Source: Erysipelotrichaceae bacterium (GTDB taxonomy: Bacteria; Bacillota_I; Bacilli_A; Erysipelotrichales; Erysipelotrichaceae). From it: a stretch of DNA of 64,000 nt. The translations under genes were made by a program, and so were the position numbers. Below are positions 21,702 through 55,024 of this stretch, piece after piece (the first letter of the stretch is position 1; every line of letters starts with the position of its first letter). The notes under the pieces are model-generated. The model was not told where the DNA came from, made no database searches, and saw nothing but the letters and a program-made list of their open reading frames with translations. Location of the stretch: contig JAUNEN010000007.1 of the NCBI GenBank assembly GCA_030525525.1, forward strand, positions 1-64,000, read 5' to 3'.

Positions 21702-21900
21702 CAACGTACCTCATCGGTTTCACAATTCATATAGCACTCCGCCAATGCGACAGTCATACAGATCTTTTCCGCATGCCCAGCAGAACTTGCGCCTCATTCC
21801 GCTTCGGCAGTTTCGCCTTTCAGTCTTTCCGGATGCTGCGAACATCCCTGATCAGGACCTACTCTTCTCAACTGCGCCTCTATCCTTGATTGCAGTATTC
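21657..21900 (-). ncRNA. Lysine riboswitch (L box)
   Basis: The leader before dapA carries the L-box core on the minus strand: GATAGAGGCGCAGTTGAG near the 5' end (about 21873-21890), AAGAGTA, CTGCCGAAGCGGAA in the middle, TGCTGGGCATGCGG, ATGACTGTCGCATTGG and GGAGTGCTAT near the closing stem. Downstream is a terminator hairpin. In known L boxes bound lysine favours termination, so dapA-dapB-M20 would be expressed when lysine is low. Boundaries are approximate. Confidence 0.9.
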
Positions 21901-39972: not shown

Positions 39973-40061
39973 TCTTTTATCAAGAATGAGGTAGAGAGTC
40001 AGCTCAGTGACCTCATACCAACCTGCATGATGTAAGGTGGTAAAGCTGACATCGATAAAGA
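39973..40061 (+). ncRNA. SAM riboswitch, compact SAM-I/IV-like variant
   Basis: P1 is TCTTTTATC (39973-39981) with GATAAAGA (40054-40061). AAGA then leads into P2 ATGAGGT (39986-39992) / ACCTCAT (40010-40016), whose loop holds AGAGAGTCAGCTCAGTG. CCAACCT...AGGTGG is P3 (40018-40040) and TAAA follows. GTCAGC in the P2 loop (39998-40003) can pair with GCTGAC (40045-40050) as the pseudoknot. Element order and AAGA/CAACC/GGTGGTAAA match S-box RNA, but the usual P4 hairpin is missing. It should lower metK expression when SAM is high. Downstream CTCTTTC (40079-40085) may pair with the GAAAGGAAG ribosome site, suggesting translational control. Confidence 0.75.
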
Positions 40062-47476: not shown

Positions 47477-49021
47477 TTACTCCTTCGCTGAACTATCTTC
47501 AGTATGATGTTCTTCAATATCAAGTCCGTTCATCAGCGGATGATGACATGCAACAAAGTGATTCGGTTCAACTTCATTCCATGAAGGAACAACCTGTTTG
47601 CAGATTTCAGTGCAGTAGCGGCATCTTGTATGGAACTTGCATCCCTTCGGAGGGTTGACCGGTGAAGGAATATCACCTTCAAGGATCTTAAGCTCTTTGT
47701 CAGCGTCCGGATCAGTTGTCGGAATCGCAGCGATCAGCGCCTGTGTATACGGGTGGATCGGCTTTTTGAACAGATCTGCCGAAGAAGCAAGCTCAACCAT
47801 GTTGCCGAGATACATAACACCGATTCTGTCGGAAATATACTTAACGACAGAAAGGTCATGGGTGATGAAGAGATAAGTCAGATCCTGCTTTTCTCTGAGG
47901 TCCTGAAGAAGGTTGATAATCTGTGACTGAATGGAAACGTCAAGAGCGGATACCGCTTCGTCGCAGACAACAAACTTCGGCTTGACAGCAAGTGCTCTGG
48001 CGATTGAGATACGCTGTCTCTGACCGCCTGAGAACTGATGCGGGAAACGATGCAGGAAGTAAGGTGCAAGACCGCAGTCGTTCATAACACTCAGAATATA
48101 ATCCTGCATTCTCGGGCTGTTGCCTGAGAAGATGTTATGAGCTGTCAGACCTTCACCGATAATCTGACCGATTGTGAAACGCGGGTTCAGAGATGAATAC
48201 GGGTCCTGGAAGATAATCTGCAGATCCTGTCTCAGAATACGGATTTCGTTGTATTCAAGACGGGCAAGATCGATGCCGTCCGTATAGAACTCATCGTATT
48301 TCTGGAATTCCGGATCGTTCAGATACGGCTCACGCATTTTTGCGATTGCCTGGTTTGCTTCAGCAAGCTCAGCATCAGTCTTTTCAAGTTCCGCCTTGTA
48401 TTCGCTCAGCTTCTGATCATAGCGGCTTAAATTCTTTTTCTTGAATTCAGCATCTTCACGCTTCGCGGTTGTTTCGGAAATCTTTTCGGTCAGCTGTCTG
48501 TGCTTGAGCGCAAGATTGTATTTCTTTTCAAATGCAGCCTTGACAGGTCCAAGATCACTCAGGGTCACAAGACCGCCGATGATGTTTGTAACATCCTGCA
48601 GAGCGTCATGAGCTTCTTTTTTCGCAGCTTCCAGTTCAGCATGCTTTGCATACTGCTCTGTTTCGGAAAGCTGATCATAAGCAGCCTGCAGTTCATCTCT
48701 CTTCGCTGCAGTCGCATGGATTTTTTCCTTGCGCTTGTCAAGATCCTTGACAGTTTCAAGCATATATTTCGGTGCAATGTCATCAAGCTTTTTGCCGTAG
48801 TACATTGTCTGTCCGTCTGTCTGACGGTACAGCTGCAGAATTGTACGTCCGAAAGTTGATTTGCCGCATCCTGACTCACCGACGAGTCCGAATACTTCAC
48901 CCTCATAAATATTCAGGGTAATGCCGTCATTTGCTTTTACGAATTCTCCCTTTTTCTTCAGCGGGAAATACTGTTTGAGGTTTGTGATTTTCAACAGAAC
49001 ATTCTTATTTGGCTGTGACAT
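47477..49021 (-). CDS. oppF: Oligopeptide ABC transporter ATPase OppF with coiled-coil insertion
   Basis: 514 residues against about 310-330 for usual OppF. Walker A GESGCGKST (48-56), Q-loop IIFQDPYSSLNP (Q272), signature FSGGQRQR (330-337), Walker B FVVCDEAVSALD (353-355), H-loop THDLS (H388) and the Opp C-terminal cysteine motif CKFHTRCRYCTEIC. Between Walker A and the Q-loop, residues about 83-260 are an extra, strongly charged helical region (DLDKRKEKIHATAAKRDELQ, KYNLALKHRQLTEKISETTA, YKAELEKTDAELAEANQAIA) predicted as a coiled coil. All nucleotide-binding motifs are intact. It overlaps oppD by 17 bases. Confidence 0.95.
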   Translation of the reverse strand: MSQPNKNVLLKITNLKQYFPLKKKGEFVKANDGITLNIYEGEVFGLVGESGCGKSTFGRTILQLYRQTDGQTMYYGKKLDDIAPKYMLETVKDLDKRKEKIHATAAKRDELQAAYDQLSETEQYAKHAELEAAKKEAHDALQDVTNIIGGLVTLSDLGPVKAAFEKKYNLALKHRQLTEKISETTAKREDAEFKKKNLSRYDQKLSEYKAELEKTDAELAEANQAIAKMREPYLNDPEFQKYDEFYTDGIDLARLEYNEIRILRQDLQIIFQDPYSSLNPRFTIGQIIGEGLTAHNIFSGNSPRMQDYILSVMNDCGLAPYFLHRFPHQFSGGQRQRISIARALAVKPKFVVCDEAVSALDVSIQSQIINLLQDLREKQDLTYLFITHDLSVVKYISDRIGVMYLGNMVELASSADLFKKPIHPYTQALIAAIPTTDPDADKELKILEGDIPSPVNPPKGCKFHTRCRYCTEICKQVVPSWNEVEPNHFVACHHPLMNGLDIEEHHTEDSSAKE

Positions 49022-50000
49022 GACGGTCCTCCCTTCTCGGATAGAAGCAGCGGATCTGCTGTGTTTCGTTCACCTGTACCAGATCAGGTTCTTCGGTCTG
49101 GCACTTTTCCGTCGCATATTTGCAGCGCGGCGCAAACTTGCAGCCTTTCGGAAGATTCAGCGGATGAGGCACAGCGCCCGGGATGGATTCCAGACGTTCA
49201 TTTGCATCGGAATCAAGTCTCGGAATTGAGCGGAACAGACCTTCTGTATACGGATGCATATATTCCGGATCAGAGAAGATTGTACGTCTCGGTGACATTT
49301 CGACAACCTGTCCGCAATACATAACTGCAACGTCATCAGCCATCTGGTTGATAACACCGAGGTCATGCGTGATAAACAGAATGGAAGTTCCGAGTTCTTT
49401 CTTCAGATCATTCATCAGTTTCAGAATCTGAGCCTGGATTGTAACGTCAAGAGCAGTTGTCGGTTCATCGGCAATCAGCAGCTTGGGACGGCACGCGAGG
49501 GCCATCGCAATCATAACACGCTGTCTCATACCGCCTGAGAGCTGATGAGGATACTGCTTAGCGACAATCTCCGGGTTCGGAATCTTGACGTCCGCAAGGA
49601 TTTCAACGACTTTCTTTGCTGCTTCCTTCTTGGACATGTGCTGGTGGATAATGAATGTTTCAGCAACCTGCTTCTCAACCGTGAATACAGGGTTGAGGGA
49701 AGTCATCGGTTCCTGGAAAATAACTGAAATCTTGTTACCGCGGATCTTGTACATTTCCTGCAGTGACTTCTTTGTAAGATCTTCACCTTCGAAAATGATC
49801 TCACCGCTTTCGATATAGCCGTTGGCGTCGAGCAGCTGAAGGATGGACATAGCGGATACGCTCTTGCCGGATCCTGATTCACCGACGATACCGAGTGTCT
49901 TTCCTTCATCTACCGAATAGTCGACGTCGTTGACAGCCTTAACAATACCTTTCTTGGTTGTAAAGTAGGTATGCAGATTTTTAACTTCAAGCAATGCCAT
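49005..50000 (-). CDS. oppD: Oligopeptide ABC transporter ATPase OppD
   Basis: A 331-residue ATPase, normal length. Walker [13 protein letters not shown] (about 40), Q-loop [12 protein letters not shown], signature [12 protein letters not shown], Walker [14 protein letters not shown]-loop THDLGV, and the oligopeptide C-terminal region with [14 protein letters not shown] (Fe-S-like cysteines found in OppD/DppD). Partner of OppF in the ATPase heterodimer. AAGGAGG precedes the ATG, 13 bases after oppC. Confidence 0.96.
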
Positions 50001-50012
50001 AATATTCCTCCT

Positions 50013-51845
50013 TTATCTACCAAGTGACTTCGGGTCAACTGCTTCACGGATCGCATCACCCATCAGGTTGATGCAGATGGTGCAGACACCGAAGATCGCA
50101 GCCGGGAATACCCATCTCCACCAGTACTGCTGGATGACGACGGAGTTGTTCGCACCGGTCAGCATATTGCCCCATGTCGGTGTCGGCGGAGTGATACCGA
50201 ATCCAAGATAGCTTAATGAAGACTCAGTCAGCATACATGTTGCGAAACCGAGAGTTGCTTCAACAAGCAGAATGGACATGACGTTGGGAAGGATGTGCTT
50301 GAAAATAATGCTGCTTTCCTTAACACCCATAGCCTGAGCTGCAAGGACGAATTCCTTTTCACGTTCAGCCAGAATCTGTGCACGGATCAAACGGCAGATA
50401 CCTGTCCAGCTTAAGAGACCGAGTACCACCATGATCAGATACATACGCAGCTGAACATCGATTCTTGCACCGATGATCGCTGAGAGCAGAAGTGCGAACG
50501 GAAGGAACGGAAGAGCACCGATAACTTCGGTAATACGCATGATGATCAGGTCAGTCTTGCCACCGAAATAGCCGGCGATCGCACCGAGAACAACACCAAT
50601 GATGAGAGCAATAATTTCCGCAATCGCACCAACAGTCATTGTTGTCTTGCCGCCATGGATAATTCTTGTCAGAATATCACGGCCCATATCATCAGTTCCG
50701 AGCGGATGACCTTTCAGTCCCCATGTCTCAACTTCGCCTGTTGTTGTAACAGCATAGTTCTGATAGAAACCGGAGAATACAGTCGCGATATCGCCGTTGT
50801 TGACAGCATCCGGCACTTCAGCCTGTCCGTGTGAGTTATCACCCCATGAGATGACATCACCGTTATCCATCAGAGCTGTATAGTGATAGCGTCCGCCATA
50901 GATTTCAACCGGTTTGGATTCAAATTCAGGAACGTTCTTTTCACCGTGTGTACCGCTGCCCCAGATTGTGATCTTACCCTTTTCGTCAACCGCAGCCATT
51001 GTTTCGCCGCTTGCCGCAATATCAACAACACCGCTGGAAAGATTGGAAGGAATATTCGCAAACGGATTGCCGGTCTTCAGACCGCCGTATGCAACAGAAC
51101 CGTCATCCAGAAGCAGACAGTAGTTATAAGTGGAGATCGCAATCTTCTTGATGTGACCCTGATACTGTGATTTGACATCAATGTCAGCCATGTTGGAGTT
51201 GCCCCAGAAATAAGCATCGCCGTCTTCTGTTACAGCGCCGCTGATCTGATAGCCGGCTTCCAGCTGAATGACTTTTCCTGCTTTATGAATACGGCTTGTT
51301 CCGGCGAGCTCATCAGGAATTCTGTCCTGACCGAGACGTGTATTACCCCAGACATAAACCTTGTTCTTGTCATCAAGTGCAACTACATGGTCATAACCGG
51401 CAGCGACATCGATGATCTTCGCTTTCTTGACTTCATCAGGAATCTTCTTGATATCAAGAGTATCTGTAATCTTTGTGTGACCCCAGACATAAACATTTCC
51501 GTCTGTATCGCAGCCGATACCGAAGGTCGGACCGGAAGCGATTGCCTGAACCTTGTTCTTCATCTGGCTCGGCAGTGACATCATCGTTGTTGTCGGAGGA
51601 ACGTTGAGCTGTGTATTGTCAGCAGCACCGAGATCGAGTTCTACGAAATGCGGGCCGACGCTGACAAAGATAAAAATCAGAATGAATACAATCAATCCTG
51701 TCATACCCAGACGGTTATGAAGGAAGTTATCAAGCATCATCTTTCCGGGACTCTGGATCTGTTCTTCAACCATGACATCAACTTCTTTGTTGCGGTTGCC
51801 GAACAGACGGGACAGAAGTGAGCTTTTCTTTTTCTTTTCAGACAT
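50013..51845 (-). CDS. oppC: OppC permease with a seven-repeat RCC1-like beta-propeller insertion
   Basis: 610 residues, about twice the usual OppC (~300). After a basic N-terminus and TM1 (MTGLIVFILIFIFVSVGPHF, about 48-67), residues about 97-378 hold seven repeats, each ending in a WG/GG turn: near 97-121, 142-167, 190-215, 231-255, 271-296, 311-335, 351-376 (for example IIDVAAGYDHVVALDDKNKV, VEIYGGRYHYTALMDNGDVI). This is the RCC1 pattern, enough for a closed propeller. The permease then resumes as in ordinary OppC with HPLGTDDMGRDILTRIIHGG, five more helices and the EAA loop (RAQILAEREKEFVLAAQAMG). Topology puts the propeller outside. Start ATG at 51845 with GGGGG upstream. Confidence 0.96.
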   Translation of the reverse strand: MSEKKKKSSLLSRLFGNRNKEVDVMVEEQIQSPGKMMLDNFLHNRLGMTGLIVFILIFIFVSVGPHFVELDLGAADNTQLNVPPTTTMMSLPSQMKNKVQAIASGPTFGIGCDTDGNVYVWGHTKITDTLDIKKIPDEVKKAKIIDVAAGYDHVVALDDKNKVYVWGNTRLGQDRIPDELAGTSRIHKAGKVIQLEAGYQISGAVTEDGDAYFWGNSNMADIDVKSQYQGHIKKIAISTYNYCLLLDDGSVAYGGLKTGNPFANIPSNLSSGVVDIAASGETMAAVDEKGKITIWGSGTHGEKNVPEFESKPVEIYGGRYHYTALMDNGDVISWGDNSHGQAEVPDAVNNGDIATVFSGFYQNYAVTTTGEVETWGLKGHPLGTDDMGRDILTRIIHGGKTTMTVGAIAEIIALIIGVVLGAIAGYFGGKTDLIIMRITEVIGALPFLPFALLLSAIIGARIDVQLRMYLIMVVLGLLSWTGICRLIRAQILAEREKEFVLAAQAMGVKESSIIFKHILPNVMSILLVEATLGFATCMLTESSLSYLGFGITPPTPTWGNMLTGANNSVVIQQYWWRWVFPAAIFGVCTICINLMGDAIREAVDPKSLGR

Positions 51846-51862
51846 CAATATAATCCCCCTTC

Positions 51863-52879
51863 TTACTTGTCCACACGTACACGCGGATCAACGAAGCTGT
51901 AGCTGAGGTCCATAATCAGAGCACCGACAAGGCTGACCACACAGTAGAACATCTGCATTGCCAGAGCCAGATCGTAGTCATGGCTGTTGAGCGCTTTGAT
52001 ATACAGGGAACCCATACCGTTGATACTGAATGTGTTCTCAATAATAACTGATCCTGAGAAGATACCGAGGAACCAGCCGATAATCAATGTAATGACAGGA
52101 AGCAGAGCATTTCTCCATGCATGGGAGTAAATGACAGTCTTTTCCTTAACACCCTTTGCACGTGCTGTCTTGATATGATCCATGCTTAATGCATCAATCA
52201 TGGAAGCACGTACATAACGTGTCATACCGCCGAGTGAACCGAATGTGATAACAATCAGCGGGAGCGCGAAGTAATACAGCATATCGAGCATCTTTCTGAG
52301 ACCGGTATAGTTTGCGCCGGGTGTACCCATACCGCTGACCGGGAACCATCTCAGAACAACTGCAAACAGGAAGATGAACACAAGCGCAATAATATAGACA
52401 GGAATACTGTAACCGATGATTGTGAAGACCATCGTAAAGTTGTCAATCTTACCGCCTTTGTGAACCGCACAGTAAATACCGAGCGGGATCGTGATGCCGA
52501 GCGCAAGAATCGTTGAGAAAATGTTCAGGAAGATTGTTGTCTTCATCGGTGCAACAACGACTTCAATAATGTTCTTCTTGAAGTACAGCGAATAGCCGAG
52601 GTTGCCCTGCAGCAGGCCGTTGAAGCCGTTCTTCACTGTCGGAAGAATGCCCATCCAGCGTGCATATCGAAGGATAATCGGATCATCAAGACCCATTTCA
52701 AGACGAAGCTGCTGATACATCTGCTGATATTGTTCAGGCTTCAGTGATGTCTTCATTGCTTCAAGCTGATTACGTGCGGGATCGCTCGGAATCAGGTTAA
52801 AAAGGAAATACATCAAAAAAGAAACAATGAAGAAAACGATCACCATGTAGAGAATTCTTTTAATAATATACTTTTTCAA
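51863..52879 (-). CDS. oppB: Oligopeptide ABC transporter permease OppB
   Basis: A 338-residue membrane subunit: TM1 (ILYMVIVFFIVSFLMYFLFN), the soluble LRLEMGLDDPIILRYARWMG, helices 2-5, the EAA-type coupling loop (MSMIDALSMDHIKTARAKG) and C-terminal helices ending with YSFVDPRVRVDK. It pairs with the propeller-carrying OppC. TTG start at 52879 with GAGGAGG five to nine bases upstream. It is separated from oppA by two hairpins, which may lower its expression relative to the binding protein. Confidence 0.96.
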   Translation of the reverse strand: MKKYIIKRILYMVIVFFIVSFLMYFLFNLIPSDPARNQLEAMKTSLKPEQYQQMYQQLRLEMGLDDPIILRYARWMGILPTVKNGFNGLLQGNLGYSLYFKKNIIEVVVAPMKTTIFLNIFSTILALGITIPLGIYCAVHKGGKIDNFTMVFTIIGYSIPVYIIALVFIFLFAVVLRWFPVSGMGTPGANYTGLRKMLDMLYYFALPLIVITFGSLGGMTRYVRASMIDALSMDHIKTARAKGVKEKTVIYSHAWRNALLPVITLIIGWFLGIFSGSVIIENTFSINGMGSLYIKALNSHDYDLALAMQMFYCVVSLVGALIMDLSYSFVDPRVRVDK

Positions 52880-53068: not shown

Positions 53069-55024
53069 TTACTCTTCGATATAAGCATAGACAACTGCCT
53101 GATAGAAGTCAAACAGTGAGTTGCATTCGAGGTTCTTGATCTTGGAATTCATAATGTCGTAATAAACGTTGGAATACAGCGGAACTTCAGGGAGATAGTC
53201 ATTCCATTCATCGATGAAGTCTACCCAAGTCTGCAGATATGTAGCATCATCGCCAGCTTCAACGCCATAAACCATATCCATGGAGAGCTTGTCGAGCTTT
53301 TCATCATCTGTGAAGTTGGTGTTCCAACCCTGAGCTACGAGTTCCGGATCCATTGTGAACTGGTAGGACTGGTCATAGAGAGCTGTGAAGTTTGTAGCGA
53401 GGTTGTACATGCCATATGTCTTAACGCCATACTGTTCACCCTGAGTTGCATCACGGTACATGTAGTTCAGAAGGTCATCGAAGGACATAACGTTCTGGTT
53501 GATTTCCATACCAGCCTTCTTTGTCTGTTCGCCGTTAGCGAGCATGACAGCGAGGAGTTCGGATACGGAGTTGCCTTCAGAAGAGGACCATTCGATGTGG
53601 AGAGGCATCAGCTTCTTGCCGTTGACTGTAACGACGCCTGTATAATCTTTGCCTTCAGCAACCTTAGCTTCTTCATCTGTAACTTCCTTGTAACGGACAA
53701 GGCCGGAACCGTCTACATAGTCTGTTCCGTCAGCGTTGTATACCCAGCCGCCTTCCTTGAGGACTTCGACAGCTGAATCAAGGCTGTAGTCATAAGTTTC
53801 GAGCTTTTCAGCAAGCTGTTCTTTGGAGTCTTTGTACATCCAGGAAGCAATTCCATACGGGCCGTGAACGACTGAACCGTAACCTTCGCAGAACTGGTTA
53901 GCGAATTCATTTCTGTCGAGCAGGTAAGCAACTGCATGACGAACTTCCTTGAACTGTGTCGGACCGAAGTCGCACTGGAACATCAGCTTACCATAACCGT
54001 TACGGTCATAGTGAACTTCTGAGAATCCACCAGATTCAACGAGGTCAAGAGCTGCGTTAACCTGAGCACCACCAGTGATGGAGGACAGGAAGTCGATAGC
54101 GCCTGTCTTCAGAGCATCGATCTGTGTTTCGTCTTCAGCCTTGACAACGATGATCTTCTGAACGTGAGGCTTCTGGCCTTCGAAGTTTCCACCGTACTTT
54201 TCATTGATTTCGAGTGTAGCTGTCAGAGCTGCCTGGTCGAATTCCTTCAGTGTGTAAGGGCCGGCAGAGATTCTGTCAGCATATACATAACGGGAAGCAT
54301 CGAGTTCGGATGCTGTGATTTCACCATCTGTGAAGTAAGCGCCGTCGCCGTCGTCAGCAACCTTGATGTCTGTCTGGCTCGGAGCATAGAGCTTCATGGA
54401 AATCGGGGACAGAGAAGCATAGCTCTCTTCGAAGTAGTAAGGAACATAGTCGGATGTGATGGAGATTGCATATGTGTAATCGTCAATCAGTCTGACACCG
54501 GACAGCTTGTTTGTTTCGCCGTTCTGGTATTCCTTAGCACCGACAACCTGGTCGGAAGAAACTTTTGCGCCTGCTTCTTTGTTCTGTGCAGAGTAAGCAA
54601 CAAGTGCATAAGCGACATAGTTAGCAGCTGTGATCGGATCGCCGTTGTTGAATGTCAGGCCTTCCTTGATCTTGACTGTGAATGTCTTTGTGCCGTCATC
54701 GTTTGCGACAGATTCGATACCTGCGCATGTTGTAGCGTTTTCGACGAGTTCGCCGCCCTGGTCTGTTGTGACTGTGCCATAGTCATCGATCAGCTGACGG
54801 ATCATTGCGTCTGAAGCGTTGTTTGTCCACCAAGCATTACCAAGGTCACCGGACAGTTCAGTTGTGCTTCCGTAGATAATCTGGCCGCCGACTGGATGTT
54901 CATCAGTTGCAGCTTCGCCTGATCCACCATCGGAAGGTGTGTTGCCCTGGGCATCACCGTTGGAGCATCCTGCGAGCATTGCAAGAGCAAGAACACCGGC
55001 TAACCACTTTCTTGAGTTACTCAT
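53069..55024 (-). CDS. oppA: Peptide-binding lipoprotein OppA (SBP family 5)
   Basis: A 651-residue lipoprotein. Signal peptide with lipobox LAGC (acylated C20), then a Ser/Gly/Asp linker (GDAQGNTPSDGGSGEAATDE), then the SBP_bac_5 fold (GQIIYGSTTELSGDLGNAWW, VKIKEGLTFNNGDPITAANY, VRHAVAYLLDRNEFANQFCE). It captures peptides outside and presents them to OppB/OppC, and so could touch the OppC propeller. Longer than E. coli OppA (543). TAGGAGG lies before the ATG. The first and probably most highly expressed gene of the operon. Confidence 0.95.
   Translation of the reverse strand: MSNSRKWLAGVLALAMLAGCSNGDAQGNTPSDGGSGEAATDEHPVGGQIIYGSTTELSGDLGNAWWTNNASDAMIRQLIDDYGTVTTDQGGELVENATTCAGIESVANDDGTKTFTVKIKEGLTFNNGDPITAANYVAYALVAYSAQNKEAGAKVSSDQVVGAKEYQNGETNKLSGVRLIDDYTYAISITSDYVPYYFEESYASLSPISMKLYAPSQTDIKVADDGDGAYFTDGEITASELDASRYVYADRISAGPYTLKEFDQAALTATLEINEKYGGNFEGQKPHVQKIIVVKAEDETQIDALKTGAIDFLSSITGGAQVNAALDLVESGGFSEVHYDRNGYGKLMFQCDFGPTQFKEVRHAVAYLLDRNEFANQFCEGYGSVVHGPYGIASWMYKDSKEQLAEKLETYDYSLDSAVEVLKEGGWVYNADGTDYVDGSGLVRYKEVTDEEAKVAEGKDYTGVVTVNGKKLMPLHIEWSSSEGNSVSELLAVMLANGEQTKKAGMEINQNVMSFDDLLNYMYRDATQGEQYGVKTYGMYNLATNFTALYDQSYQFTMDPELVAQGWNTNFTDDEKLDKLSMDMVYGVEAGDDATYLQTWVDFIDEWNDYLPEVPLYSNVYYDIMNSKIKNLECNSLFDFYQAVVYAYIEE

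Follow-up and report, generated by a model that had tools for sequence, protein, structure and literature searches.

For bacteria of the gut and rumen, ABC importers of peptides serve both feeding and signalling. In the standard view, a free binding protein hands its cargo to a bare permease, with the scoop of OppB as the sole special feature of the outer face. The importers closest to the one described here are OppBCDF (8z21) and DppABCDF (8z1v-8z1z) from E. coli and OppABCD (8j5q-8j5t) from M. tuberculosis. Each permease subunit of E. coli Dpp has its own ATPase, DppD for DppB and DppF for DppC, and the loop between TM1 and TM2 of DppB forms the scoop, which enters the cleft of DppA (PMC12136057). 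The other protein to which the locus bears comparison is BLIP-II, a seven-bladed propeller with merely three antiparallel strands per blade, which binds proteins with picomolar affinity or tighter (PMC6121496).

The locus lies in a window of 64,000 nucleotides, the whole stretch of DNA that was analyzed, from an Erysipelotrichaceae bacterium (Table 1). As in other type I peptide importers, the operon runs in the order oppA-B-C-D-F (C-F-D in a few related operons), and its OppC carries OppC_N (residues 33-85, E 2e-7) and BPD_transp_1 (residues 418-607, E 1.4e-29), both above the gathering score. Here a third Pfam family, RCC1_2, falls between them. The oppC reading frame spans 50013-51848 on the (-) strand if a TTG start is taken; translation most likely begins at the ATG at 51845, giving 610 aa. 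This ATG is preferred because a strong Shine-Dalgarno sequence, AAGAAGGGGG, is found just 5' of it, and it matches the end coordinate given in the initial annotation. Residues of OppC are numbered from this ATG, and the query used for the Pfam and PDB sequence searches began at the TTG and was one residue longer.

Table 1. Features of the importer operon, with positions in the window
Feature	Position	Strand	Details
oppC-RCC1 gene	50013..51845	(-)	610 aa, ATG start at 51845; Pfam OppC_N/RCC1_2/BPD_transp_1
Shine-Dalgarno-like AAGAAGGGG ahead of oppC ATG	51855..51863	(-)	Read from sequence
TM1 of OppC, residues 45-66	51648..51713	(-)	AlphaFold helix; OppC_N
RCC1/BLIP-II-type seven-bladed propeller, residues 97-378	50712..51557	(-)	Pfam, PDB match, AlphaFold (predicted)
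Blade 1, residues 99-122	51480..51551	(-)	Three strands, AlphaFold model
Blade 2, residues 144-167	51345..51416	(-)	AlphaFold model
Blade 3, residues 192-215	51201..51272	(-)	AlphaFold model
Blade 4, residues 232-252	51090..51152	(-)	AlphaFold model; GG replaces WG, third strand short
Blade 5, residues 273-296	50958..51029	(-)	AlphaFold model
Blade 6, residues 312-335	50841..50912	(-)	AlphaFold model
Blade 7, residues 353-376	50718..50789	(-)	AlphaFold model; runs directly into HPLGTDDMGRD
OppC permease core, residues 379-610, starting at HPLGTDDMGRD	50016..50711	(-)	Pfam; structural alignment
oppD	49005..50000	(-)	Without insert; Walker A-Q gap 46 or 47 in window-like set
oppF, 514 aa	47477..49021	(-)	ATPase expected (after E. 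coli Dpp) to pair with OppC
Walker A of OppF (GESGCGKST region), residues 48-56	48854..48880	(-)	Invariant columns
OppF helical insert, Walker A to Q-loop, about residues 84-248	48278..48772	(-)	AlphaFold; gaps measured
oppB	51863..52879	(-)	TM1-TM2 (scoop) region kept
oppA	53069..55024	(-)	Family-5 substrate-binding protein, 651 aa, lipobox-like LAGC near N-terminus

The protein is the OppC permease of a family-5 (peptide/nickel) type I ABC importer. Peptide transport is a plausible function because the substrate-binding protein belongs to family 5, the nearest curated names are those of oligopeptide Opp4 systems, albeit below the cut-off, and an M42 aminopeptidase gene adjoins the operon in this genome and in close relatives. 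None of the named OppC equivalogs in NCBIfam (Opp4C, PRK15406 and others) was reached, the best score being 306.8 bits for Opp4C against a cut-off of 350. As predicted, the permease is whole, the propeller having been added with no permease part lost. E. coli OppC (8z21_B) aligns in full, its 278 resolved residues spanning the insert and matching within residues 28-605 of the model (VIA-align; Z 29.7, rmsd 2.5), and the propeller therefore appears to be purely additional, in keeping with the in-frame insertion that had been proposed.

The insert had been placed between TM1 and the HPLGTDDMGRD segment when the DNA was first read, and the Pfam domain order and the AlphaFold model both put it there. 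The seven RCC1-like units proposed at the same time, each with a WG or GG turn, could all be located: the turns are found at residues 121, 166, 214, 254 (the GG), 295, 334 and 375, and the units are spaced 39-48 residues apart. Pfam RCC1_2 matches in five stretches (E 4.6e-34, 115.8 bits, cut-off 22). When OppC was searched against the PDB by sequence alone, BLIP-II was matched (E 4e-22) alongside OppC and DppC structures. The AlphaFold2 model, made with 56 relatives, has a mean pLDDT of 83.9, with values mostly of 87-95 in the insert, and arranges residues 99-376 as seven well-folded units of three strands each. A smaller number of blades or a disordered insert, either of which would have counted against the first reading, is thereby rejected. 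Foldseek returns BLIP-II as the top match to the model (TM 0.78-0.87 by target length) with OppC and DppC next, and VIA-align superimposes BLIP-II over 258 residues (Z 32.0, rmsd 2.1, 26% identity). The insert is accordingly modeled as a seven-bladed ring of the RCC1/BLIP-II type, the fold first suggested for it, with a match that is far beyond chance. Homology with the solved OppC and DppC structures would place this ring outside the membrane, which supports the orientation originally assigned to the loop.

This architecture is real and old, and many bacteria of the gut and rumen have it. In a collection that represents each species by one genome, a scan recovered 80 loci with RCC1-OppC relatives, mostly full length and with 51-97% identity, from Erysipelotrichaceae (Solobacterium-like), Oscillospiraceae, Lachnospiraceae, Christensenellaceae and others. 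Isolates among the hosts include Erysipelotrichaceae bacterium NK3D112 (97%) and Hungatella effluvii DSM 24995 (57%). The existence of 80 independent relatives in other genomes, these two isolates included, rules out an assembly or fusion artefact, as the initial annotation had maintained. Far more distant proteins, with 37-41% identity, came from an added phylum sample and an order sample. In every full-length relative aligned, the propeller is embedded after TM1 and ahead of the permease core. The gene is present in some genomes of the window's genus and absent from others; the window-like type is shared with Clostridia, and other genera of the same family have the distant type. The patchy presence within the genus, together with the type shared with Clostridia, suggests that the operon moved by horizontal transfer.

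Purifying selection acts on both the propeller and the permease core and is looser on the propeller (pairwise dN/dS of 0.04-0.19 for the insert and 0.01-0.08 for the core). That non-synonymous change is several times faster in the propeller than in the core could suit a neutral passenger, a domain tolerated in the loop with no role of its own. This is the least probable of the explanations weighed here, and a very improbable one, given how low the propeller's ratio is in absolute terms. In addition, seven blades and an almost constant insert length are retained among species-level relatives, and no reversion to a short loop was found within the RCC1-OppC clade on the tree of the permease core.

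The account in the initial annotation, sound for the insertion in OppC, was incomplete with regard to OppF and to the domains unrelated to RCC1 that occupy the same OppC site elsewhere. OppF of this locus has an insert between Walker A and the Q-loop that is predicted to form long helices at residues 94-116, 120-153, 158-193 and 199-233 (AlphaFold2 pLDDT mostly 87-97). Outside the insert, the model aligns with E. coli OppF (8z21_D) over 318 residues (Z 38.2, 48% identity), and the ATPase motifs are invariant. The Walker A-Q-loop gap is 157-414 residues in all 81 scorable RCC1-OppC operons, those in which OppF is complete and adjacent, compared with 38-44 in OppF from 16 plain-loop operons. OppF in RCC1-OppC operons is 432-711 aa long, versus the usual length of about 310-340. 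It is close to certain that the architecture combines a propeller in the outer loop of OppC with a helical insert in OppF. From homology with E. coli Dpp, where DppC pairs with DppF, the propeller on the outside and the OppF insert on the inside would belong to the same C-F half-transporter.

Two of the related operons depart from the usual layout. In a divergent example (L134), a 538 aa OppC with a shortened N-terminus is followed by an OppD-like gene, and OppF is absent. In another (L135, 5357-8791), OppC reaches 1144 aa, with long coiled-coil-like and other sequence within the propeller region, and OppF is 711 aa.

Enlarged OppF proteins are also found in Mycoplasma, in a related class, with 797 aa in M. 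synoviae (PMC7456371). Among small-genome loci translated with code 4, the Walker A-Q gap is 43-54 even where OppF has 834 or 868 codons. In the small genomes of L250 and L251, where OppF has 834-868 codons under code 4, the extra sequence is found outside the Walker A-Q interval. Eight further loci with an OppC of about 320-400 codons, mostly from small genomes (code 4), have an OppF gap of 42-54 in every case. The idea that the insert is a Mycoplasma-like trait was rejected for the Walker A-Q position, where the gap is not enlarged.

On a tree of the OppC core, with the insert removed, RCC1 proteins form one clade (support 100/98) whose sister is a plain OppC (L178). On the OppF core tree, inserted OppF of the RCC1-operon kind also forms one clade (98/95), with the uninserted OppF of L178 adjacent. 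The RCC1-OppC propeller has a single origin, and since the sister operon has neither insert, both gains map to one stem. A strict one-to-one link between the OppC loop and the OppF insert is ruled out by five loci: L182 and L191 have an inserted OppF next to a plain OppC, and L228, L235 and L236 have long OppC loops and an OppF without the insert. The OppF arm is therefore not dependent on the propeller, as L182 and L191 illustrate. The inserted OppFs of these two loci nest deep within the inserted-OppF clade, a position that would fit capture of an F-D pair by a different operon.

We assign a probability of roughly 0.4 to the leading single reading, in which the propeller docks OppA or an OppA-associated partner and the OppF arm tunes the same half of the importer. 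One half-transporter, made of OppC and OppF, would be expanded on both faces of the membrane. The propeller would act as a protein-docking module, holding or positioning the lipoprotein OppA over the C side of the gate and working beside the scoop of OppB. On the cytosolic side, the OppF arm would make a contact by which the ATPase of the OppC half is tuned or anchored, and the two additions may be coupled across the membrane. In favour of docking are the protein-binding fold shared with BLIP-II, the reach of the DppB loop to its binding protein, the OppF insert in 81 of 81 operons and the partial correlations given below; against it are the modest size of those correlations, the loci at which loop and insert part company, the lack of OppF in L134 and the conservation of the propeller, which is mostly at structural WG and Gly positions and gives no clear signal of a conserved binding face. 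Of the roles first suggested for the propeller, a gating lid, a wall anchor or a second receptor, that of lid needs care because OppB keeps its TM1-TM2 scoop region, which does that job in E. coli DppB. The position at the outer mouth, as judged by homology, would also suit a second substrate receptor or a filter above the pore, binding peptides or another solute. Such a receptor is quite improbable: OppA and the OppB scoop region are both kept, and the propeller has no conserved constellation of polar residues beyond the RCC1 signature positions.

Next in rank after docking of OppA comes the capture of a different surface partner, for example peptidoglycan, a protease (secreted or at the surface) or another membrane protein, which would place the importer at a source of peptides. 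BLIP-II-type propellers bind unrelated protein partners, and divergence is quicker in the OppC propeller than in the permease core. The outer-loop site of OppC is filled elsewhere by unrelated domains (L180, L225, L226, L229), suggesting partner-specific modules. However, no conserved partner gene was found adjoining RCC1-OppC operons beyond oppABCDF, and the propeller is retained in diverse gut, rumen and other Bacillota; this explanation is on the unlikely side.

Other outer domains are found at the same site. A separate OppC clade from other families of the class has TM1-TM2 loops of 140-627 residues in the operons scored; these loops are unrelated to RCC1, mostly unannotated and probably β-rich, and OppF in this clade has an insert at the same Walker A-Q site. 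The OppCs of about 430-930 aa at L179, L180, L206-L227, L229, L230 and L242-L245 have large outer domains at the same TM1-TM2 position. Several of these domains contain repeated, probably β-rich units, and neither of the two that were scanned had a significant Pfam match. OppF at these loci is inserted as well. One locus (L227) has OppD and OppF fused in a single 1126-aa ORF, with a Walker A-Q gap of 105 in the OppF part.

The coincidence of an OppC outer domain with an OppF insert is seen in two further clades, one of them large and the other smaller. With L227 corrected, the scored operons comprise 115 with both loop and insert, 3 with the loop only, 1 with the insert only (a count that leaves out L191, whose OppC is cut) and 16 with neither. 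In an independent-pairs test all changes were concordant, but they amount to merely 2-3 independent contrasts and the sign test was not significant. Repeated co-gain of the two features is suggestive and is not established, because the independent events are too few. As a tentative and somewhat doubtful generalization, importers of Bacilli and related Bacillota may have repeatedly gained an OppC outer domain with a helical OppF insert at one fixed place, which would make the propeller one of a set of exchangeable outer modules in a hitherto unrecognised kind of ABC importer regulated from both sides.

Covariation was assessed through partial correlation of divergences with other subunits held constant, using several distance measures and subsets. 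The divergence of the propeller tracks that of the OppF insert best (partial r 0.29-0.42), with a lower partial correlation for the OppF core, a weaker one for OppA (0.13-0.25) and hardly any for OppD (-0.09 to 0.10). These modest values may just reflect the rapid evolution of the propeller, the OppF insert and OppA, which outpace every other part. They bear on the third-ranked explanation, a two-sided regulator in which the outer domain of OppC senses the state of the envelope or ligand and the OppF arm relays it, setting the ATPase or binding a cytosolic partner. That the strongest residual covariation joins the propeller to the OppF insert would fit such a relay, as would the expected location of both inserts on the C-F half, their common stem of origin and the coincidence in the additional clades. 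We nevertheless consider it unlikely in view of the few independent contrasts, the exceptions in both directions (loop only and insert only) and the fact that no direct mechanical link between the inserts is evident.

The surroundings of the operon hold several further elements. A conventional oppBCDF is found on the same contig just past the window (L146, G000:C152:60000-74991), so plain and RCC1 systems are close together in this genome. The window also has a lysine riboswitch at 21724-21890 (-) (Rfam, 81.5 bits) and a SAM riboswitch at 39974-40061 (+) (Rfam, 51.1 bits). Most sampled genomes of the genus also encode another RCC1-type protein, about 710-860 aa long, which does not belong to the importer (for example, L003 at 13311-13841 of contig C34 in G000, and relatives such as L087). 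It has a helix-turn-helix N-terminus, one TM segment, RCC1-like repeats and seemingly fibronectin-like repeats, and from this layout looks like a membrane-bound regulator or sensor.

No paper joining RCC1 with OppC or an ABC permease was found in the open-access literature. The parts belong to known families, and domain-architecture databases may list the combination unremarked, but a propeller in a permease loop with a constant insert in the partner ATPase appears to be undescribed. The system should be experimentally accessible, since it is carried by a strain in culture, Hungatella effluvii DSM 24995 at the least. It offers a natural setting for studying communication across the membrane between domains on the outer face and the ATPase in asymmetric ABC importers, those built from two unlike halves.

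The OppC insert shares with BLIP-II (1jtd, 3qi0, 3qhy) its seven three-stranded blades, but BLIP-II is a free secreted inhibitor, whereas the propeller here is predicted to be a loop of a membrane permease. The eukaryotic RCC1-like propellers (UVR8, the RLDs of HERC2 and RCC1) belong to the same repeat family and also close a ring of seven blades; they are less similar to the insert (Z about 23-28) and occur in soluble or other architectures. OppF retains all the ATPase motifs and the oligo_HPY C-terminus with its cysteines found in OppF and DppF (8z21_D), and differs by the helical insert of ~165 residues added between Walker A and the Q-loop. In the solved OppC and DppC proteins the TM1-TM2 loop carries no folded domain of such size, whereas here it holds a propeller of ~282 residues. 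Unlike the bare permease of the standard view, this widespread clade would carry a full propeller at the permease mouth, together with an altered ATPase as its expected partner.
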